From assembly GCA_015069205.1 (NCBI GenBank), contig SVIZ01000005.1:11377-75376 (forward strand): DNA of 64,000 bases, given 5' to 3'. How positions within the stretch are numbered: position 1 is the stretch's first letter; the number at the start of each line of letters is the position of its first letter. The position numbers and the translations under genes were made by a program. The notes beneath the pieces were generated by a model. That model saw nothing but the letters and a program-made list of their open reading frames with translations, was not told the origin of the DNA and did no database searches. Below are positions 8,249-21,578 of the stretch, in pieces. The stretch is from Oscillospiraceae bacterium (GTDB lineage: Bacteria > Bacillota > Clostridia > Saccharofermentanales > Saccharofermentanaceae).

Positions 8249-10018
8249 ATGGACACTAGTTTAATTAACAGTTTAATAGACGAAAAAGTCTTCGGCGTCT
8301 GGTTCCTGATCGGCGCAGCATTGGTTTTCTGGATGCAGGCAGGTTTCGCGATGGTTGAGTGCGGCTTTGCAAGAGCTAAGAACGCAGGAAACATCATCAT
8401 GAAGAACCTCATGGATTTCTGTATAGGTACCGTAGTATTTATTGCAATCGGTTTCGGTTTATTCCTCGGTGAAGACATGCTCGTGGGTTTCATGGGCAAG
8501 CCGAACATCGACATTTTCGCAAATTACGCAACTTTCGATTGGTCTAACTTCGTATTCAATCTCGTATTCTGTGCCACAACAGCTACTATCGTTTCAGGTG
8601 CTATGGCAGAGAGAACAAGATTCCTTTCTTATTGCGTATATTCAGCAGTTATTTCAGCAGTCATTTATCCTATCGAAGCTCACTGGACATGGGGCGGCGG
8701 CTGGCTTGCTCAGCTCGGATTCCACGATTTCGCAGGTTCTAACTGCATCCACATGGTAGGCGGTATCTCAGCTCTCATCGGTGCAGCTATCTTAGGACCC
8801 CGTATCGGTAAGTTCGTAAAGGATAAGAAGGGTAAGATCACAAAAGTAAATGCATTCCCCGGCCATAACATCCCCATGGGTGCTTTGGGTGTATTCATCC
8901 TCTGGCTCGGCTGGTACGGATTCAACGGTGCTGCCTGCACGGATATGGCTCAGCTCGGTTCTGTATTTGTAACAACAACAATCGCTCCTGCGATCGCAAC
9001 TGTTGTCTGCATGATCTTTACATGGATCAAGTATGGTAAGCCGGATGTCTCAATGTGCCTTAACGCTTCTCTTGCTGGTCTTGTTGCAATCACGGCTCCC
9101 TGCGACGTAACAGACGCTCTCGGCGCAACGATCATCGGTGCTGTCTCAGGCGTACTCGTAGTATTCGGTGTATGGTTCCTTGATAACGTATTGAGAGTTG
9201 ACGACCCTGTCGGTGCAGTTGCAGTTCATATGCTGAACGGTATCTGGGGTACGATCGCAGTCGGTCTTTTCGCAACAGATACAGCTCCTGCATACTCTAT
9301 CGCTGACGCAGCAGGTAATACAATGACTGGTCTGTTCTATGGCGGCGGTGTTAAGCTCCTCGGAATCCAGCTCTTAGGTATGGGCGCTACAGCAGCCTGG
9401 ACTGCAGTTACCATCACGGTTACATTCCTTATCATAAAGGTTATCTTCGGTCTCAGAGCTTCTGAAGAAGAAGAGCTCACAGGTCTTGACGTTACAGAGC
9501 ACGGTCTCGCAAGTGCTTACTCCGGTTTCTCACTCATGGATGTTTCAGGTTCTATGATGGAAGAAAACGAGAATACAGATCTTGGTACAGCAGAATATGC
9601 CGAGGCTTCTGAAGCCCAGAAGAATGCTGCGGTCAAGGTAGCAGTTGCTCCTGAACTCGATACAGGTATGCATAAGGTTGTCATCATCGCCAAGCTTTCA
9701 CGTTATGACAAGCTCAGAAAGGCAATGAACGATCTCGGTGTAACCGGTATGACAGTTACCCAGGTTATGGGCTGCGGCATCCAGAAGGGTGCGGGTGAGA
9801 AGTACAGAGGTGTCGAGGTTGACGCTACGCTCCTTCCTAAGATCAAGGTTGAAGTTGTCGTATCCAAGATCCCTGTAGAAAAGGTTATCGAAAAGGCTAA
9901 GGAAGTTCTTTACACAGGACATATCGGTGACGGTAAGATCTTCGTATACAACGTAGGCAAGGTCGTTAAGATCCGTACGGGTGAAGAGAACTACGCAGCA
10001 TTACAGGATGTAGAGTAA
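8249..10018 (+). CDS. amt: Ammonium transporter fused to a C-terminal PII (GlnK-like) regulatory domain
   Basis: A 589-residue membrane protein. Residues 1 to about 410 are an Amt/MEP/Rh channel with about 11 membrane segments, the twin pore histidines (IHMVGG and AVHMLNG) and the GHNIPMGALGVFILWLGWYG signature. An acidic linker (about 410-472) leads to a full PII domain (about 473-589) with QKGAGEKYRG in the T-loop, LPKIKVEVVV, and the nucleotide-binding TGHIGDGKIFVYNV and RTGE. The T-loop tyrosine uridylylated in enteric GlnB (Y51) is V here, so classical uridylylation seems impossible. The fusion would place the PII gate directly on the channel. Preceded by a mini-ORF and AAGGAG; monocistronic. 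Amt-PII fusions are known in some bacteria. Confidence 0.95.
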   Translation: MDTSLINSLIDEKVFGVWFLIGAALVFWMQAGFAMVECGFARAKNAGNIIMKNLMDFCIGTVVFIAIGFGLFLGEDMLVGFMGKPNIDIFANYATFDWSNFVFNLVFCATTATIVSGAMAERTRFLSYCVYSAVISAVIYPIEAHWTWGGGWLAQLGFHDFAGSNCIHMVGGISALIGAAILGPRIGKFVKDKKGKITKVNAFPGHNIPMGALGVFILWLGWYGFNGAACTDMAQLGSVFVTTTIAPAIATVVCMIFTWIKYGKPDVSMCLNASLAGLVAITAPCDVTDALGATIIGAVSGVLVVFGVWFLDNVLRVDDPVGAVAVHMLNGIWGTIAVGLFATDTAPAYSIADAAGNTMTGLFYGGGVKLLGIQLLGMGATAAWTAVTITVTFLIIKVIFGLRASEEEELTGLDVTEHGLASAYSGFSLMDVSGSMMEENENTDLGTAEYAEASEAQKNAAVKVAVAPELDTGMHKVVIIAKLSRYDKLRKAMNDLGVTGMTVTQVMGCGIQKGAGEKYRGVEVDATLLPKIKVEVVVSKIPVEKVIEKAKEVLYTGHIGDGKIFVYNVGKVVKIRTGEENYAALQDVE

Positions 10019-10199: not shown

Positions 10200-11072
10200 A
10201 TGACCATAGTATCATTTCTTCTGGCAGGCACATGGTTTTCAGAATTCTGGGCTGCTTTTGTAGAACAGCTTACTGAAAGACTGTTTGGCCATAAGGATAT
10301 TGGAGAAGAGATTAGCAAAGCCATTATGCAGGTGCAGATGAGCTTTGCTGCCGGCGATAATACACTCATCATTACTGATGCCATCATAGTAACCTGGATC
10401 GCTGTAGTTATTATGTTGATCATTGTCGCTGTTTTGCTGGGTAAACCATCAAAGGACCATAAGCTCACAAAGGGTCAGACGATCCTTGTTTCTTTGACAG
10501 AGCTTGTTATCAGCACTGCAATGAGCTTCGGAATGAATCGTAAGCAGGCTGAAGAAGTTGCTCCGATGGTCATGACCTTTGGTCTTGTGCTCGTCGCATG
10601 TAACTCAATCTCATATTTTCATCTCCCGCCTCCGGCAAAGAACGTCGCATTCCCTGTAGGATGCGCTATTGTTGCGATCATTTATGTAATCGTCATGACG
10701 TTCAAGTTTATCGGCATTAAGGGATTCTGGATCTCACTTACACAGCCTGTAGCTATCATGCTCCCGTTCAGGCTTTTGGACTATGTTATCAAGCCCTTGT
10801 CTCTTGCATTGAGACTTTTCGGTAACGTTTTCGCGGCATTCGTATTCATGGAGTTCTTATCTATCTCCTTACCGGTGATCGTACCGGGTATTGTAGGTCT
10901 CTGGTTCGACATCATCGACGGAGTTATTCAGGCTGTAGTATTTGCTTACCTGACAATGTCTTACATCGGTGAGAACCTTGAAACTTACAACGAGTACATA
11001 GAACACCCTGAAGAACATCAGAAAAAGAAGAAAGCCAAGAAGAGCAAGAAATCTGAAGCTGTAGCAGCTTAA
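10200..11072 (+). CDS. atpB: F-type ATP synthase subunit a
   Basis: A 290-residue integral membrane subunit forming the ion half-channels against the c-ring. It has about five to six membrane segments and the essential arginine in LALRLFGNVFAAF (R about 205, equivalent to E. coli R210). The C-terminus is a lysine-rich cytosolic tail (KKKKAKKSKKSE). Start ATG 10200 follows GGAGCTGGAGGG. It opens the operon atpB-E-F-HA-G-D-C; atpI is absent. All genes are on one strand with short gaps or overlaps. Confidence 0.95.
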   Translation: MTIVSFLLAGTWFSEFWAAFVEQLTERLFGHKDIGEEISKAIMQVQMSFAAGDNTLIITDAIIVTWIAVVIMLIIVAVLLGKPSKDHKLTKGQTILVSLTELVISTAMSFGMNRKQAEEVAPMVMTFGLVLVACNSISYFHLPPPAKNVAFPVGCAIVAIIYVIVMTFKFIGIKGFWISLTQPVAIMLPFRLLDYVIKPLSLALRLFGNVFAAFVFMEFLSISLPVIVPGIVGLWFDIIDGVIQAVVFAYLTMSYIGENLETYNEYIEHPEEHQKKKKAKKSKKSEAVAA

Positions 11073-11112: not shown

Positions 11113-11388
11113 ATGACTAACATTCTTCTCGCAGCATTACCTATCATAGCTGCACTTGAGACAAAGGGAATCGCAGCAATTTCTGCAGCGATCGCTATCT
11201 CTTGTGGTGCTATCGGATCTACTGCAGCCATGGGTAAGGCGACAAGTTCAGCTCTTGAAGCAGGCGCAAGACAGCCTGAGATCATCTCAAAGCTTCAGAC
11301 ACTGCTCCTTATCGCTATCGTATTCATGGAGTCAATCGGAATCTATGCACTCGTTGTCGCATTCCTTTTGATCTTTACAGTAGGCTGA
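11113..11388 (+). CDS. atpE: F-type ATP synthase subunit c (proteolipid)
   Basis: A 91-residue two-helix hairpin forming the rotor ring. The polar loop is ARQPE and the ion-binding carboxylate is E73 in FMESIGIY. Aligned by ARQPE with Bacillus subtilis c, the usual helix-1 glycine motif (G-A-G-I-G-N-G) reads G-S-T-A-A-M-G (residues 35-41), so two glycines important for ring packing are Thr and Ala. The helix-1 Gln found in sodium-type rings is Met or Ser here. E-S precedes I-G-I-Y on helix 2. Ion specificity therefore cannot be read off. RBS AGGAGG lies 10 nt upstream. Confidence 0.93.
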   Translation: MTNILLAALPIIAALETKGIAAISAAIAISCGAIGSTAAMGKATSSALEAGARQPEIISKLQTLLLIAIVFMESIGIYALVVAFLLIFTVG

Positions 11389-11425
11389 TCAGGAATATTT
11401 CCGAGAGTTAATGGAGCTAAACAGT

Positions 11426-11989
11426 ATGTCATATTTACCGGAGCTGTTATTTGAGGCAGGAGAGTCCAATCTCTTTTCGCCCGATCAGTTTGCAGGATAC
11501 GCTGTAACTGCCGTTATCACGATATTCAATATCTTATTGGTATTCGTGGTTTTCAGGCTGTTCGCATATAAGAAGATCCTTAAACTTATACATTCACGTC
11601 AGGAAGCGCTTGACGCCGAGCTCGAAGAGGCTAAAAAGGCCAGAGAAGAAGCACAGGCAATCGTAGATTCTTCCAAAGAGACTATCGATGACGCAAAACG
11701 AAAAGGCTCTGCGATCATGGAAGAGGCCAAGGCCAATGCCGAAAAACAGAGCAAAGCCGTTATCGAACAGGCGAATGAAGAGGCTCAGCAGATTATTGTC
11801 AGAGCCGAAGAAGATGCAGCAAGGATGAAGCGTAATGCCTTTGAGTCTATGAAAGACGATATCGCCGATCTCTCAGTTCAGATCGCAGGTCACATAATAG
11901 GTGATGCGATATCCAAGGATGAACTCAGCAAGTCCGCTGCAAAGCACACAGAAGAGATCCTCAGCCAAGAGGTAGCTAAGAGTGAGTAA
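11426..11989 (+). CDS. atpF: F-type ATP synthase subunit b
   Basis: The peripheral stalk subunit, 187 residues from the chosen start. One N-terminal membrane helix (about 25-50, AGYAVTAVITIFNILLVFVV) is followed by a long charged coiled coil rich in E, K and A (AELEEAKKAREEAQAIV onward). The start at 11426 is preferred because GGAG lies 9 nt upstream; an in-frame ATG at 11411 lacks a good ribosome-binding site. Its end overlaps the start of the delta-alpha fusion by 8 nt, indicating translational coupling. In the canonical enzyme the C-terminal end of b binds the delta C-terminal domain, which here is attached to alpha. Confidence 0.93.
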   Translation: MSYLPELLFEAGESNLFSPDQFAGYAVTAVITIFNILLVFVVFRLFAYKKILKLIHSRQEALDAELEEAKKAREEAQAIVDSSKETIDDAKRKGSAIMEEAKANAEKQSKAVIEQANEEAQQIIVRAEEDAARMKRNAFESMKDDIADLSVQIAGHIIGDAISKDELSKSAAKHTEEILSQEVAKSE

Positions 11990-13943
11990 TAACCCGTCAG
12001 ACAATAATGAGATTAAGGCTGCCGGCAAGGCCAAATCCAGAGGTCCGTCTCTCCGTATAGAGACAGCCGGTGACATTCCTGAGGAAAAACTTACCAGGGT
12101 TGCCGCCAAATTTGCCGAAGTAAATGAGATCGAAGATTACCGTCTCTCCATTGAGTTGCGTGAGGATCTCATCGGCGGTTTTATTATCTATTTTCAGGGT
12201 AGCCGTTACGACTATTCCGTAAAGGGACAGCTTGCCAGGATCGGTTCCTTTATTAAGCGTACACGTTCTATCGACGGCTACGAAGACGGAATCGCCGCAC
12301 AGAGAAAGGCTCTTACAGAAGATTTCCCTGCGACCAAAGTAAAAAAGGATTTGGAGACTGCACTTGAACAGTTCCCTGAATCCAATATGTTAAGTATTGA
12401 TAATGTCGAGATCTTCGAGCTTACTGATGAAGAGCTCGACAAGCGAGTAGAAAATGCGTTTGTTTCACGTGAGCACAAGGATGAGATCGGCCGTGTAGCA
12501 GCCATCTCAGATGGTGTTGCTTCCGTTACCGGCCTTCGCAACTGCATGCTCAACGAGCTTATCTATTTCGCATCCGGTGCTACAGGCATTGCCATGAACC
12601 TTGAGAAAACCAAGGTCGGCGTCGTTCTCCTTACAGGCGAAGACACCGTAGTTGAGAGCATGACCTGCAAGCGTACCATGACGACTTGTTCCGTACCTGT
12701 AGGTATGGGCCTTTTGGGAAGAGTTGTAGATGCCTTGGGCCATCCTATAGACGGCAAGGGTGTCATCAGATATACCGAAGAGCGTCCGGTTGAGTCGCCC
12801 GCGCCTTCGATCATCGACAGAGCACCCGTTGATACCCCTCTGTTCACGGGAATTACAGCCATCGATGCCCTTACACCTATCGGAAGAGGACAGAGAGAAC
12901 TCATCATCGGTGACCGTCAGACCGGTAAGACATCCATCGCACTTGATACGATCATTAACCAGAAAAATGAAAATGTTATCTGCGTTTATGTCCCGATCGG
13001 ACAGAAGATGGCAAATATCGTTGCAACTGCAGGACTTCTCGAAAAGCGCGGAGCTCTGGACTATACGGTCATAGTTGCTGCTTCAGCTTCTGAATCAGCA
13101 GCAATGCAGTATATCGCACCTTTCTCGGCATGTGCCATTGCCGAGAAGTTCATGTACGACTATCACAAGGACGTGCTGATCGTTTACGATGACCTTTCAA
13201 AGCACGCACAGGCATACAGAGCTATCTCATTGCTCCTCAGAAGACCTCCGGGAAGAGAAGCTTATCCGGGCGACGTCTTCTATCTGCATTCAAGACTTCT
13301 GGAGAGAGCCGCTAAGCTCTCGGATGAGCTCGGTGGAGGTTCCATCACTGCGCTTCCTATCGTTGAGACACAGGGTAACGATATCTCCGCATATATTCCG
13401 ACGAACGTTATCTCGATTACAGACGGTCAGATCTATCTGTCACCGGAGTTGTTCTTCTCGGGCCAGAGACCTGCCGTAAACGTAGGTCTTTCCGTATCCC
13501 GTGTAGGCGGTGCGGCACAGACAAAGGCAGTCAAGAAAGTTGCCGGACCTTTGAGAATCTCATTGGCTCAGGCCCGTGAAATGGCTTCCTTCTCACAGTT
13601 CGGTTCCGACCTCGATGAGAATACCCAGCTTCAGATTAAGAGAGGTGTTGTTCTTAACGAAGTATTGAAGCAGGAGAGATTCTCTCCTCTTACGATGGCA
13701 GCAGAAGTAATCCTTCTGTATTGTGCTACTTCGGACAAGTTCAACTTCCTTGCAACTGAAGACATTACAGAGTTCTATACAGCACTTTTCGCAGACATAA
13801 GACTCCGTCATCCGAATATCTTCGAAGAAATAACGGACGGCAAGGTATTTACTGACGAGATAAAGTCCGAGATCGATTCGGCATATGAGGAATATAAGGA
13901 AACATTCCTTGCCGAGCACGAGGAGTACGTCGAGGACTATTGA
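11982..13943 (+). CDS. atpA: ATP synthase alpha subunit with an N-terminal delta C-terminal-domain fusion
   Basis: A 653-residue protein, about 150 residues longer than a normal alpha. Residues about 145-653 are a complete alpha subunit: DGVASVTGL in the beta-barrel, Walker A GDRQTGKT (about residue 310), and the arginine-finger region SVSRVGGAAQTKAV. Residues about 21-95 match the C-terminal domain of subunit delta: an EEKLTRVAAKFAE helix, then LIGGFIIYFQGSRYDYSVKG and QLARI, cf. the delta consensus L-I-G-G-F-x(6-8)-D-x-S-V-x-x-Q-L. Residues 96-145 are a charged linker. The N-terminal six-helix domain of delta is not present, and no separate atpH lies in the operon. The start is GTG 11982 with GAGGT upstream, overlapping atpF by 8 nt. 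The frame runs without interruption and neighbours are intact, so a frameshift artefact is unlikely. Confidence 0.93.
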   Translation: MSNNPSDNNEIKAAGKAKSRGPSLRIETAGDIPEEKLTRVAAKFAEVNEIEDYRLSIELREDLIGGFIIYFQGSRYDYSVKGQLARIGSFIKRTRSIDGYEDGIAAQRKALTEDFPATKVKKDLETALEQFPESNMLSIDNVEIFELTDEELDKRVENAFVSREHKDEIGRVAAISDGVASVTGLRNCMLNELIYFASGATGIAMNLEKTKVGVVLLTGEDTVVESMTCKRTMTTCSVPVGMGLLGRVVDALGHPIDGKGVIRYTEERPVESPAPSIIDRAPVDTPLFTGITAIDALTPIGRGQRELIIGDRQTGKTSIALDTIINQKNENVICVYVPIGQKMANIVATAGLLEKRGALDYTVIVAASASESAAMQYIAPFSACAIAEKFMYDYHKDVLIVYDDLSKHAQAYRAISLLLRRPPGREAYPGDVFYLHSRLLERAAKLSDELGGGSITALPIVETQGNDISAYIPTNVISITDGQIYLSPELFFSGQRPAVNVGLSVSRVGGAAQTKAVKKVAGPLRISLAQAREMASFSQFGSDLDENTQLQIKRGVVLNEVLKQERFSPLTMAAEVILLYCATSDKFNFLATEDITEFYTALFADIRLRHPNIFEEITDGKVFTDEIKSEIDSAYEEYKETFLAEHEEYVEDY

Positions 13944-13947
13944 TCTT

Positions 13948-16345
<2,398 letters not shown>

Positions 16346-16353
16346 TCACTGTT

Positions 16354-16860
16354 ATGGCTGAACATTCTTCACATAAGATCAACCTGCTTATCGTTACTCC
16401 CTACGAGGATTTCTTCGAGGGTCAGGTTGACAGTGTCAGAATTCCCACAAGTGACGGTGAGTTCGGCTTTATGGCCGGACATTCTCCTTTTGTAGCTGCA
16501 TTAGAACCCGGTGCATGTGCACTTACGACTAACGGCAAGACAAGATACTGCATGCTCTCTGAAGGTTACTGTGAGATCAACGGTATGCTCGCACTCATTG
16601 TCTGTAATTCTGCCGAGTGGCCTGAAGACATTAGGCTCAGAAGAATAATCAACGCTTACAAAGCAGCGATCGAAGAGATAAAGACTCATCAGGACAAGAA
16701 CGGCAGACCGGTATTTTCTGAAGACAGTGTTGCAAAAGGAAAGCGTGCTCTTGCAAGAATGCGTTTTATCGAGCGTTACGGTACTGACCAGCAGAGAGAA
16801 AGACTTGCCGGCTATAAAAAGAGCGATTTCCCTGACGGAAAGATCCCCAGACTTCAGTAA
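16354..16860 (+). CDS. atpC: F-type ATP synthase subunit epsilon
   Basis: A 168-residue subunit of the central stalk. The N-terminal beta-sandwich (about 10-95) carries LLIVTPYEDFFEGQVDSVRIPTSDGEFG-type sequence and GHSPFVAALEPG. The C-terminal helical part (about 105-168) is longer than in most epsilon subunits (about 135 residues), with a charged insert (HQDKNGRPVFSED) and tail. It starts 8 nt after atpD and closes the operon. Confidence 0.92.
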   Translation: MAEHSSHKINLLIVTPYEDFFEGQVDSVRIPTSDGEFGFMAGHSPFVAALEPGACALTTNGKTRYCMLSEGYCEINGMLALIVCNSAEWPEDIRLRRIINAYKAAIEEIKTHQDKNGRPVFSEDSVAKGKRALARMRFIERYGTDQQRERLAGYKKSDFPDGKIPRLQ

Positions 16861-16969: not shown

Positions 16970-17359
16970 TTATTTTTTGTAAGATAGAAGAGTACAATCT
17001 TTTCTTATTATGTATAGTTTTTTAAGCTGGGAATTTAACTTAAATTCCAGTTCAAGTTTATGAATGCTTTTTGCTTCAGCCAACTTAGTATTTCTTAGGT
17101 CAAATATGATATTTTGAGATTGCTTAATTGCTTTGCGTATATTGTTTTCTATGGTTCTTTTGCTTTCACCTATAGGACATTTGATTTCCCATTCAATACC
17201 ATCCATTATAATGTCAGGAGTATGTTGTTTTGGTATTGCACTTGGATGTATAAAAACTATATTTTTACCTAAATTAGCGAAATATTTGGCTGTTTCAAAT
17301 TCAGCTTTTTCCGGTGGTGAGTTTAGTTGAGATATATCTATTGTCCCAATCGTATTCAT
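16970..17359 (-). CDS. Stand-alone CdiA-CT-like nuclease-domain protein
   Basis: 129 residues, AT-rich compared with its neighbours. Residues about 16-125 resemble the C-terminal tRNA-nuclease domain of CdiA-type toxins: ETAKYFANLGKNIVFIHP, then PDIIMDGIEWEIKCP giving a PD-(D/E)xK-like core (D49 or D53, E58, K60), then IENNIRKAIKQSQNIIFDLR. There is no signal peptide and no delivery domain. ATG lies 3 nt after the FHA gene stop, without an evident ribosome-binding site, so it may depend on coupling to the tad operon. No adjacent immunity gene is seen. Family assignment is by motif recognition; a non-toxic restriction-like role is possible. Confidence 0.6.
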   Translation of the reverse strand: MNTIGTIDISQLNSPPEKAEFETAKYFANLGKNIVFIHPSAIPKQHTPDIIMDGIEWEIKCPIGESKRTIENNIRKAIKQSQNIIFDLRNTKLAEAKSIHKLELEFKLNSQLKKLYIIRKDCTLLSYKK

Positions 17360-17362
17360 GTA

Positions 17363-18637
17363 CTAGCAGCTGAATCTGAATTCAAGTTCTCCAAATGTTA
17401 TCTTTTGTCCTGATTTGATCTCATAAGTTTTTCCGTTATCAACCGGAGAGTCTTCAATATATGTTTTGCCTGTGCCCTTGGAAGGCACTAAATAGAAAGA
17501 TCCTTCTTTTTGTTTGATGACTGCATGAAGAGGAGCTATCTCCGGATCGTCGATTACTATGTCGGATAAGAAACAATCTGATCCGATGCATGTCTCATCC
17601 AGATAAATTGAATATTTTGATCTGACTCCTTTGCTGTCAGAAATAAGCGTAAGCATTCCTGATGTCAGTGGTTTATATTGTCTTACAGGTTCATCATTAG
17701 TGTCTTCATGTGTCTGGTCTGAATCATATTCAGGAACAGGATCATCTGAAAATAGAATTGAACTTCTCTGTTTTGATTTCTCCTGTGATTCTTCTTTTCT
17801 TATGAATTCTTCGCGCTTTTTCTGATTCAATATCGATACGGACAATATTACCGCTGAAAGGAAGAAGAACAGAAAGCAGGGAAGTGCCATTTTATTAATC
17901 AAAAGCAGCAATGCCAAAACTGCCGATAAACAGGCGATAATAAGGTCTTTTTCTGTTTTTGAAAGAGCATTAATGCTGCGTGGCAGATTGATTGTTTTCC
18001 TTTTCTCCCCGGTATTCTGAGACTTTATAAAGGGATTAGCATCTTCATCAGTTCCTCTGATTAACCCTGCTATCTTAAGAAACATATCCTCGTTGTTCTC
18101 CCTTACGCTGTAAACTAACGCATTTTTCTCATCGTCAGAGATGACGTTTTTGAAGAAATCGCAGTTAAGGAGTTTTTCAAATTTAAGCGCATCAATTGAA
18201 GATAAGCAGAGTCTGTCAGGTGCGATCTTTTGTGGAAGACAGCACAGCTTTATAGTGATGCCTTCCGAATCAGTGAATATCATGTCCGGATCGAGCACTA
18301 TGCAGGAAGGGGAGACGAGGTTATCTAAAAGCTTTACGAAGGTATAAAAAAGGTCCCCGGCAGATTTACGCCTCAGGCTGAGGTTCTTTAATTCTTTCTT
18401 GGTTGGTGTATTTCTTCTGCCCGGCGAAAACACGGAAAATTCCGGGTCAGTTATCTGCATGAATCCTGAAAATTCAAAACTGCACATTATTCCTCTGCCT
18501 AAATATTCAGTACTTGGCTTAAGGTAGAAGTCTGAACTGTTTCCGGCAATTACCTCCTCGGCGTAAGTGCATAATGATTCCGGATCGTCAAACTTCTCAA
18601 GAGCGTAATATCCGTAGGGTCCCTTCTTTATCTGCAT
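17363..18637 (-). CDS. DUF6382-like membrane protein with C-terminal FHA domain
   Basis: 424 residues. The N-terminal about 200 residues resemble the DUF6382-type domain found with FHA domains in clostridial Tad loci. Two close membrane segments follow (about 233-275, LIIACLSAVLALLLLINK then CFLFFFLSAVILSVSIL). An acidic linker leads to an FHA fold (about 335-424). The FHA phosphopeptide-binding residues look degenerate: the usual G-R is G-S (CIGSDCFL) and the S-x-x-H segment is APLHA. It is a likely accessory or scaffold protein of the Tad pilus machine, encoded last in the operon after flp. The role is inferred from position. Confidence 0.7.
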   Translation of the reverse strand: MQIKKGPYGYYALEKFDDPESLCTYAEEVIAGNSSDFYLKPSTEYLGRGIMCSFEFSGFMQITDPEFSVFSPGRRNTPTKKELKNLSLRRKSAGDLFYTFVKLLDNLVSPSCIVLDPDMIFTDSEGITIKLCCLPQKIAPDRLCLSSIDALKFEKLLNCDFFKNVISDDEKNALVYSVRENNEDMFLKIAGLIRGTDEDANPFIKSQNTGEKRKTINLPRSINALSKTEKDLIIACLSAVLALLLLINKMALPCFLFFFLSAVILSVSILNQKKREEFIRKEESQEKSKQRSSILFSDDPVPEYDSDQTHEDTNDEPVRQYKPLTSGMLTLISDSKGVRSKYSIYLDETCIGSDCFLSDIVIDDPEIAPLHAVIKQKEGSFYLVPSKGTGKTYIEDSPVDNGKTYEIKSGQKITFGELEFRFSC

Positions 18638-18871: not shown

Positions 18872-20437
18872 TTATATGCCGAGAGAGATAATTGCGGGTG
18901 TCATAGCAACCATAAGGACGCTTATGAAGTCTAAAGTCATTGGGATTATCAATCCCAACGCTTCTCGTTCCTGTCTTTTTTTTGAAGCGTTTCTGCACAG
19001 GTTCCAGCATGCCTGTGACTGAAGATTCAGCATGTTTAAGACTTCTGCAGAACCTAGTCTTCCGTATCGTGCGATCAGAAGAAGTGCGGCCTGGGCTTCG
19101 GGTATCTGTATCCTTAACGAGAATTTCTCGACGGCATCCGAAGCGGGAATGCCGCTTAATATCATTGCTCTTAAGTTCTTGATCTCAAGCGAAAGGCTCT
19201 TGTTTTCTTCGAATGCTTTTGAGCAGATCGAGATGGCTTTAGGAAGCTGCATTCCGGATTCCAGAAGTGTTGATATGAGACACAGGAATAACGGAATGTC
19301 ACTCATGAGATCCTCTCTTTTGCGTTCGACATCAGTTCTGATCTCACATCCGCCAAGTACGATTATCGCGGCCGTAAACACGAGCGAAAAGAGAGGATTC
19401 TTATCAAGAGTGATGAGTATTGCCGTGGATATCACAAAGGCGGCAGTACCCGTTAACAGCTGTTTTTTCAGATATTGTTCGTAAGTGTATTCGGGGTTTA
19501 CCGACAGCTCATTAAACAGTTCATGTCTTGCAGTGATGAAGCTTGCCGGAAAGATCTTTTTTGCAAGTATGGTAAGGGTAGTGGACGGTATCTTACCGCC
19601 TTGGTTTATGCTGACGGCATGTTCTGATTTATATGCTTTTCTTCCTTGCTCATGGGACATAAACTTCAGAAGCATTGCGCAAGCTATGGTACATATGCCG
19701 AAAGCCGCAGCAAGAAGGAATGAACCTGTCTTGGTGTTCCTTGCCATATCAAGGTATTCTCTGCTCATGTAGTTGAGAGCAAAAGTTACTCCAAAAGGCA
19801 TCGCACAGAGTATTGCTGCTTCTGCATTCTTTCCTGCATTTGAAGCTGCGATCTCTCCCTGAACCGCATTGAGTTCTGAGAGCATCTGACATGAGCTTCT
19901 TAAAATCGACAAACTGTTGTTGCCGATCTCACCGGATATCGCCAATGCGTGAAATACCGGTACCGTCTCAGGAAATCCAATCTGCTGTGCAAACGTGTTA
20001 AGAGAATCTTCAAGACTTACGTGAAGCTTGAGATTGTTCTCGAGATTAATGAGCGGCTTTAAGAGCATTGAGCGTTTGCCGAATGTTTTCTCTATAACCG
20101 GTCTTATCAGAAGAAGTGATTTCTCGATTGAGTATCCGCTCGAAACGCTTGTGCAAAGGACCTGCAAAAGCACGAGAAGCTGAGTCCTCATGTGTCTGTA
20201 GTTATTCGAGTAGATCTTTTTCATGGCTTCTTTCCATGGGAGTATGCTTAGCAGGATCGCAAGGAACAGCCTTATGAATTCGGATTTAATGAATAATCCT
20301 GATGCGAAATAAACGACTGCCACAAAGACCGGGTAAACCCATACTGTCTTCGCGAGAAATACAGGGAAGGAATGGATCTTCTTATGCTCTGTACGCCATT
20401 GCGCTTTTGATGTCTTCAATGCCTGCGATACGTTCAA
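18872..20437 (-). CDS. Fused TadB-TadC inner membrane platform protein
   Basis: 521 residues from the proposed TTG start. Two T2SSF (GspF-like) domains lie in tandem. The first (about 80-230; SVSSGYSIEKSLLLI, ISGEIGNNSLSIL) is TadB-like. The second (about 355-521; LISTLLESGMQLPKAISIC, LIARYGRLGSAEVLNML) is TadC-like. Each is flanked by membrane helices. In most Tad loci these are separate neighbouring genes. The start is taken as TTG 20437 because TAAAGGAGGTAACGGTC lies directly upstream; the only earlier ATGs lie deep inside tadA without such a site. The gene overlaps tadA by 56 nt, suggesting coupled translation. It forms the membrane platform for pilin assembly. Confidence 0.85.
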   Translation of the reverse strand: MNVSQALKTSKAQWRTEHKKIHSFPVFLAKTVWVYPVFVAVVYFASGLFIKSEFIRLFLAILLSILPWKEAMKKIYSNNYRHMRTQLLVLLQVLCTSVSSGYSIEKSLLLIRPVIEKTFGKRSMLLKPLINLENNLKLHVSLEDSLNTFAQQIGFPETVPVFHALAISGEIGNNSLSILRSSCQMLSELNAVQGEIAASNAGKNAEAAILCAMPFGVTFALNYMSREYLDMARNTKTGSFLLAAAFGICTIACAMLLKFMSHEQGRKAYKSEHAVSINQGGKIPSTTLTILAKKIFPASFITARHELFNELSVNPEYTYEQYLKKQLLTGTAAFVISTAILITLDKNPLFSLVFTAAIIVLGGCEIRTDVERKREDLMSDIPLFLCLISTLLESGMQLPKAISICSKAFEENKSLSLEIKNLRAMILSGIPASDAVEKFSLRIQIPEAQAALLLIARYGRLGSAEVLNMLNLQSQACWNLCRNASKKRQEREALGLIIPMTLDFISVLMVAMTPAIISLGI

Positions 20438-21578
20438 GACCGTTACCTCCTTTATTTCTGTATAGCGTTTTGAGTCTGTATTCATGATCTTTAGGGGGCA
20501 TGACCTCACAGATCTCATCTATATATCTTTTGCCTTCACGGCTTCTCATTATGTGAAGCACGATGTTTATTCCCATTGATACCTGGGACAGGATCGCATC
20601 GTAGGGAAGACTTGAGCCTGAAAGGATCATGGCGGTAAGCCTTTCCATCATTTCAAGACATGAGTTGCTGTGTCCCGTACTCATGGATCCCGGGTGACCG
20701 CTCGTAAGACAGGATAGAAGGTCTGCGCTTTCCTTGCCTCTGACTTCGCCGACGATGATCCTGTCGGGACGCATCCTGAGTGATGCCCTTATCATCATTC
20801 CTATATTGATCTCTCCGGTACCGTCAGGACCCGGAAGCCTTGCTTCCATCCGCACGAGATTATCTATTCCCTGAAGGTTCAATTCTGCTGAATCTTCTAT
20901 TGTTACGATGCGTTCGTCCTTAGGTATGAAGTTGCTGAGACTGTTTAAAAATGTGGTCTTTCCCGAGCCGGTTCCGCCGCATATGAATATGGTCCGTTTG
21001 TTCCTTACACATTCAGCCAGAAACCTGGCTGCTTCCTCACTTATGAACTCCTGTCTTATAAGAGAGACGATGTCGTGAGTGATGCCGGTAAACTTTCTTA
21101 TCGTTACCGTCGTCTCTCTTGATATGGGAGGGAGGACAGCGTTAGCTCTTGAGCCGTCCGGAAGTCTTAAATCGGCTATTGGATTGGCTTCGTTAAGAGG
21201 CCTGTTCTGGTTTGCGAAAAAACAGGAGATACAAGTCCTCAAGGATTCTTCATCTCTGAAAGCCAGATCTGATCTATAGAGCTTTCCGCCTCTTTCAAAA
21301 AATATCTTGTAAGGTCCGTTTACCATTATTTCCGTTATAGAAGGATCTTCCATCAAAGGTTCGATCACGTCCAGGCGTCTTAATGAGTTGAATACTGATT
21401 GGGCCATCTCCCGTTTCTGGTCGAGATTCATCTTGTAGGATGTGTTCTCGGAGATTACATCGGATATGATCTCCCTGAGTTTTTCATCGGAAGGATCAGT
21501 CTCTCCGGATATTGCATTCAATACGCAATAAGTAATCTGCTCTTTGATGTCGTCCCGGCTCGTTTTTACATGATTCAT
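20382..21578 (-). CDS. tadA: Tad pilus assembly ATPase TadA/CpaF
   Basis: 398 residues, a secretion/pilus hexameric ATPase. Walker A is CGGTGSGKTTFLNSL, the Asp box is ERIVTIEDSAELNL, Walker B is RPDRIIVGEVRGKE, and the His box is TSGHPGSMSTGHSNS. The N-terminal region includes DPSITEIMVNGP and the family-typical LRLPDGSRANAVLPP. It powers pilin polymerisation through the TadBC platform. The start overlaps the end of tadZ by 4 nt (ATGA-type coupling). Confidence 0.94.
   Translation of the reverse strand: MNHVKTSRDDIKEQITYCVLNAISGETDPSDEKLREIISDVISENTSYKMNLDQKREMAQSVFNSLRRLDVIEPLMEDPSITEIMVNGPYKIFFERGGKLYRSDLAFRDEESLRTCISCFFANQNRPLNEANPIADLRLPDGSRANAVLPPISRETTVTIRKFTGITHDIVSLIRQEFISEEAARFLAECVRNKRTIFICGGTGSGKTTFLNSLSNFIPKDERIVTIEDSAELNLQGIDNLVRMEARLPGPDGTGEINIGMMIRASLRMRPDRIIVGEVRGKESADLLSCLTSGHPGSMSTGHSNSCLEMMERLTAMILSGSSLPYDAILSQVSMGINIVLHIMRSREGKRYIDEICEVMPPKDHEYRLKTLYRNKGGNGLERIAGIEDIKSAMAYRA

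Follow-up and report, generated by a model that had tools for sequence, protein, structure and literature searches.

Based on the profile searches, structure predictions and genome comparisons presented here, we confirm that positions 11982-13943 of the window (the whole 64,000-nucleotide stretch of contig SVIZ01000005.1 that was analysed) hold a single open frame, the sequence of which corresponds to a delta/OSCP C-terminal domain followed by a complete F1 alpha subunit. By analogy with an engineered enzyme of the same design, we consider it probable, if only just, that two or all three alphas of the encoded ATP synthase each dock a b2 stalk together with a separate a subunit, in which case the enzyme would move more ions per ATP.

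The fusion gene and its operon

The subunit order in the window is a-c-b-[deltaC-alpha]-gamma-beta-epsilon, where deltaC denotes the delta C-terminal domain. The features are:

10200..11072, + strand: atpB, Fo subunit a, 290 aa (PF00119)
11113..11388, + strand: atpE, Fo subunit c, 91 aa (PF00137; above the TIGR01260 cut-off)
11411..11989, + strand: atpF, single b subunit, 192 aa (PF00430; above the TIGR01144 cut-off)
11982..13943, + strand: deltaC-alpha fusion gene, 653 codons (GTG start, with GAGGT 8 nt upstream as Shine-Dalgarno sequence)
12051..12245, + strand: delta/OSCP C-terminal domain, residues 24-88 (PF00213 profile positions 105-169 of 172; hhalign; fold)
12258..12428, + strand: linker, residues 93-149 (predicted models; alignments; dN/dS 0.21 for residues 93-150)
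12438..13910, + strand: complete alpha core, residues 153-643 (TIGR00962, 710 bits)
13885..14886, + strand: atpG, gamma, as the listed ORF (PF00231; above the TIGR01146 cut-off; homologues align from residue 22)
14861..16345, + strand: atpD, beta (TIGR01039, 731 bits)
16354..16860, + strand: atpC, epsilon, 168 aa, with a long C-terminal part (PF02823; just above the TIGR01216 cut-off)

The first-pass annotation of this DNA had described one frame of 653 codons with a delta C-terminal domain at about residues 21-95, a complete alpha at about residues 145-653 and no atpH between atpF and atpA, and all three observations are borne out. The PF00213 search that it had proposed for the N-terminal part matches the b-binding C-terminal domain (34.2 bits, profile positions 105-169; hhalign 97.9), the alpha core scores 710.5 bits against a curated TIGR00962 cut-off of 484.45 and is thus of the F type, and the end of atpF overlaps the start of the fusion by 8 nt. 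PF00213 positions 1-104, which cover the N-terminal six-helix crown domain of delta/OSCP, are unmatched in the fusion protein. For the atpF product, ATP-synt_B alone exceeds a Pfam cut-off. In the structure models, the first part of the linker is of low confidence (pLDDT below 50 at residues 96-115) and is followed by predicted helices at residues 117-129 and 141-146; a further predicted helix, at 149-161, takes the position of the alpha N-terminal helix.

An internal translation start, which would yield alpha without delta (two plain alphas for every fusion), was considered and rejected. Met136 is unconserved in the alignments, 21 of 79 linkers contain no in-frame ATG, GTG or TTG, and the two candidate starts of the window have no Shine-Dalgarno match of at least 4 nt, a feature found at 74 of 80 first starts; a linker start with such a match occurs in just 21 of 78 genes.

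No delta N-domain was found in the fusion gene, the operon or the genome (98.6% complete, not closed), using PF00213 and a profile built from the genus' own delta N-domains. The genome-wide search for an atpH or a lone N-domain that the first-pass annotation had called for returned a single PF00213 match, namely the fusion. An N-domain too divergent for recognition could nevertheless be encoded elsewhere and complete the crown, giving a normal one-stalk enzyme. The genome is not closed, lone N-domain frames are known in the family f130, and profiles have their limits: the search of this genome with the full-delta profile was empty, but it missed the fused deltaC too and so carries little weight. 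Against this, none of 18 fusion-only genomes contains a significant match to the genus N-domain profile (G075 reached E 0.2), whereas all eight control genomes with a full delta do, four of which had contributed to the profile and four of which had not; moreover, PF00213 does detect lone N-domains in five f130 genomes and finds none here. We therefore regard a hidden N-domain as very unlikely, and the corresponding suggestion of the first-pass annotation is left without support. The f130 frames (G613, G682, G702, G780 and G797; profile positions 6-96 to 6-98, 109-164 aa) are a mirror image of the deltaC-alpha fusion. The three PF00006 matches in the genome of the window are the fused alpha, the operon beta and Rho, so that the fusion-operon enzyme is the only rotary ATPase found.

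Just upstream of the operon (8249-10018, + strand) lies a gene for an ammonium transporter with a C-terminal PII/GlnK fusion (PF00909 at 17-420, PF00543 at 474-579). Downstream, a frame of 129 aa (16970-17359, - strand) matches a CdiA C-terminal domain (PF18451, E 6.5e-13) and adjoins an FHA-domain gene (17363-18637, - strand); the 548-aa product encoded at 18872-20518 (- strand) may be an assembly protein of a pilus or of a type II secretion system.

Conservation, selection and spread

The first-pass annotation did not know this form as a common one. It is common in this genus, where 53 of 58 genomes have a deltaC match inside a long alpha frame and the alpha of one further genome is cut off by a contig edge, and it recurs across the phylum. 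A separate delta is present in 37 of the 58 (truncated by a contig end in one case): 34 genomes have the fusion and a separate one-delta operon, 19 the fusion only and two neither. Among the other families of the order, the fusion is found in 13 of 14 f3 genomes and in 7 of 12 f4 genomes, a further f4 genome (G064) having a free-standing deltaC gene of fewer than 95 codons between b and alpha. The 14 f2 genomes contain a single ordinary delta and a single weak fusion, which scores under the cut-off.

The collection of atpA homologues with N-terminal extensions, another check suggested at first pass, produced 80 named loci and, as detailed below, cases under 23 family labels. The deltaC motif RYDYS[VI]xGQ, sought in 84,980 species genomes, was found in 94 stretches, of which 85 were confirmed and 80 kept as the named loci; chosen by this motif, they speak to the integrity of the frame and not to its frequency. 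The fusion frame is complete in 79 of them and runs off the contig end in the other. In all 79 named loci that hold b, this gene overlaps the fusion or lies within 1 nt of it; the contig of the eightieth begins 25 nt before the fusion. Record titles include Saccharofermentans, Mageeibacillus, Ruminococcaceae and Clostridiales; plasmid records gave no match. The relatives are mostly metagenome-assembled, which could point to an assembly or annotation artefact, but the same fusion is found in 80 named contigs from many projects, among them the record titled Ruminococcaceae bacterium YAD3003 (L082), which is not marked as a MAG, and in proteins named Christensenella. Because independent assemblies carry the fusion, the artefact reading is refuted, and we give it practically no credence.

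Median dN/dS is 0.106 for deltaC, 0.212 for the linker and 0.095 for alpha, these medians pooling related pairs (usable pairs out of 607: 408, 263 and 607, respectively). DeltaC is thus under purifying selection about as strong as that on alpha, and the rate of linker evolution is roughly double that of the two flanking parts. Linkers have a median length of 59.5 residues in the same-genus set (20 loci) and of 70 in the same-order set (19 loci), compared with 31 in both the same-class (19 loci) and the same-phylum set (9 loci); seven loci have linkers of merely 11-24 residues. A general co-loss of the alpha N-terminal helix was also considered and dropped, given the helix modelled at residues 149-161 and the restriction of such short linkers to these seven loci. 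The fast-evolving linker, with its stretch of low pLDDT, would suit a post-translational cut releasing a free deltaC and a normal alpha, and the detached deltaC genes of some relatives (G064, G309, G137 and G436) indicate that a separate deltaC can evidently serve. However, an unsystematic look at the alignments revealed no conserved cleavage motif, and the recurrence of fusions in separate lineages, together with the shortest linkers, suggests that the bond itself is kept; cleavage appears unlikely to us.

The two kinds of operon also differ in epsilon, the median length of which, from stop to stop, is 168 codons in fusion operons (73 of 80 loci) versus 96 where the genus has one-delta operons (6 of 8 loci); this would allow different regulation, with a possible difference in epsilon-based inhibition. 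An insertion pattern in the beta N-terminal barrel occurs in 31 of 77 fusion-operon betas and in none of eight canonical ones, and we draw no claim from it.

Fusions are also found well beyond the order. In a class sample of 393 genomes, 224 had a PF00213 match and 49, chosen for their weak best scores, were inspected (three of these belong to the same order); in a phylum sample of 398 genomes, 28 were inspected. A delta match in a frame of 509-679 aa was found in 27 genomes (12 family labels) within the class but outside the order, and a match within such a long frame in 11 genomes (7 family labels) outside the class. For 28 of these 38 genomes, at least one per label, the fetched frame is an alpha with deltaC, the remaining ten (eight in the class sample, two in the phylum sample) being judged on frame length alone. 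With f1-f4 included, f2 by its one weak case, delta-alpha fusions thus occur under 23 family labels. These wider counts are lower bounds, as genomes with a strong full delta were left uninspected for an additional fusion. Judging from the names of related proteins, the family f46 is close to Christensenella. In eight f17 genomes (including G111 and G440; L238 and L295), a nearly complete delta (profile positions 35-172) is fused to alpha in a 679-aa frame, so that a single F1 would have to accommodate three N-domains. Free-standing deltaC genes of about 80-121 codons occur in G309, G137, G436 and G118, and a frame labelled as 299 aa in G516:C36 (L294) has two delta matches (profile positions 19-171 and 85-171).

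Phylogenetic analysis of the alpha core (104 rows, 63 fused) requires nine changes of fusion state, in a tree obtained by a quick search without bootstraps, after removal of 21 named rows, one for its shortness and the others as near-duplicates, and of all cores of fewer than 390 residues. A single clade of all fused rows is rejected (p-AU 2.2e-46; 93 rows, 59 fused), and the fusion has therefore been gained or lost repeatedly; L298, labelled as free in the tree despite its 142-residue extension, was left out of this test along with ten long-branch rows. The alpha of the window falls into a clade of 35 rows (f1, f3, most f4 rows and one f2 row) with support 99. The same-genus one-delta alphas form a separate clade of 15 rows with support 100, far from the former. 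That one operon arose from the other by a recent duplication within the genus is unsupported, the two alphas lying in separate, well-supported clades.

The number of stalks

In the parts of their paper drawn on here, Ueno et al. 2025 (Nat Commun 16:5410, PMC12229609) report that the delta N-domain, on the pseudo-threefold axis, limits the enzyme to one stalk, and that the Bacillus PS3 enzyme with the N-domain deleted and deltaC fused to alpha can carry as many as three stalks and an equal number of a subunits, with an average of two. Its H+/ATP ratio is 5.8, versus 3.0, and its equilibrium proton-motive force is about half that of the wild type; cryo-EM showed very few particles with three stalks, and the enzyme pumped less actively than the wild type (PMC12229609). 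The first-pass annotation had anticipated three copies of deltaC per enzyme, no crown and a different arrangement of the stator; the results support this, with up to three deltaC, and it matches the engineered enzyme as described in those parts of the paper.

In the natural enzyme, three deltaC-alpha subunits would likewise offer three stalk docking sites with no N-domain on the axis. A b2 stalk and an a subunit could then attach to each alpha, the enzyme would assemble with two or three b2-a stators, and more stators would mean more ions per ATP. The benefit would be that ATP could be made when the ion-motive force is low, at a level that an Rnf-type complex may be able to maintain, which would suit an anaerobe. 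An RnfD/NqrB-family protein (PF03116) is encoded in all 15 genus genomes tested, including that of the window (G000:C36:111001-111909, E 6e-52), and we infer that the ATPase may draw on this protein. Where a genus member has both operons, the high-force gear would be the one-delta enzyme, with the fusion enzyme as the other gear; a plain superiority of the fusion is excluded, because both operons coexist in 34 of the 58 genomes. We tentatively propose, as an idea that may well need revision, a natural multi-stator rotary ATPase with up to three b2-a stators per rotor, a low-force gear that was reached repeatedly in Bacillota and that is paired with a one-stalk enzyme in more than half of the genus and is the sole rotary ATPase in this genome. 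If this is true, several stators would represent a second way of setting the number of ions per ATP.

The main rival to this mechanism is a single tethered stalk: of the three deltaC copies, one would be engaged by the only b2-a stator, the covalent bond merely standing in for the missing contact with the crown, and the two remaining copies would be idle or packed together atop F1. The single a and b genes in their normal order fit such an enzyme, and an enzyme with several stalks would depend on expression levels for its stoichiometry. One-stalk particles, wild-type-like, were also seen for the engineered enzyme, but the same enzyme, with three equal docking sites and no axial N-domain, carried two stalks on average (both from the consulted parts of Ueno et al. 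2025, PMC12229609). Purifying selection on deltaC does not separate the two models, since it is expected under both. We consider the tethered stalk possible, though somewhat doubtful. The fusion alone need not imply several stalks, since the f17 fusions retain a nearly full delta, and the long linker of the window's lineage may position deltaC differently.

Comparison with known systems

An F-ATPase with part of delta on another stator subunit is known from mycobacteria, and the C-domain of their b-delta fusion aligns with the window model. There, however, delta is carried by b, in chains of about 430-450 residues, whereas in the window b is free of delta and the C-domain only is carried by alpha, in up to three copies per enzyme. 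N-ATPases lack a separate delta subunit, as does the window, but the portions of the literature used here (PMC5706428, PMC4154653) describe a long C-terminal extension of b and an atpR gene; in the window, b has 192 aa, deltaC is on alpha, TIGR03324, TIGR03305 and TIGR03321 all score below cut-off and the gene order is a-c-b-deltaC alpha-gamma-beta-epsilon, which places the operon outside this group.

Fusions of the kind seen here are already in print, and we make no claim of absence from the wider literature. The consulted parts of Ueno et al. 2025 (PMC12229609) name Acidaminococcus fermentans as having a natural delta-alpha fusion that lacks the N-domain, point to comparable features of UniProt G4Q3K6 and A0A1I2C5T3, and predict a multi-stalk structure for natural fusions, leaving its verification to the future. 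Compared by description only, these cases share with the window the missing N-domain and the attachment of delta to alpha; the window differs in belonging to Clostridia, in a fusion clade with support 99 whose genomes often have a second, one-delta operon. The closest counterpart is the engineered deltaDN-alpha FoF1 of Bacillus PS3 (PDB 9JC1), in which, according to the same passages, deltaC (PS3 residues 105-178) is likewise placed on the alpha N-terminus and the N-domain is removed. The window fusion matches the 9JC1 chain by sequence and by fold, and shows the same defining traits: deltaC and alpha in one frame, deltaC at the N-terminus, and no N-domain found in gene, operon or genome. The PS3 enzyme is designed, with a short linker, the epsilon C-domain removed and up to three stalks measured; the window enzyme is natural, with a long linker bearing extra predicted helices and a long epsilon.

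What is added here is a genus-wide Clostridia lineage that reaches other families of the order and has long helical linkers, about twice those of other fusions; the occurrence of fusions under 23 family labels, with repeated gain or loss and with free-standing deltaC genes; the absence of the N-domain, checked genome by genome; and the paired one-delta paralogue. Candidate natural multi-stator enzymes are thereby provided, some of them in named organisms (Ruminococcaceae bacterium YAD3003, Christensenella tenuis and C. hongkongensis). Alpha, beta and the fold of deltaC are common to the fusion enzyme and to the canonical one-delta F-ATPase found in the genus (e.g. L022, L018), the alphas being about 52-61% identical. 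The one-delta enzyme differs in having a separate delta of 175-179 aa with an N-domain, an alpha of about 500 aa that belongs to a distant clade, and a short epsilon. This paralogue constitutes a within-genus control, and the multi-stalk question is therefore directly testable.
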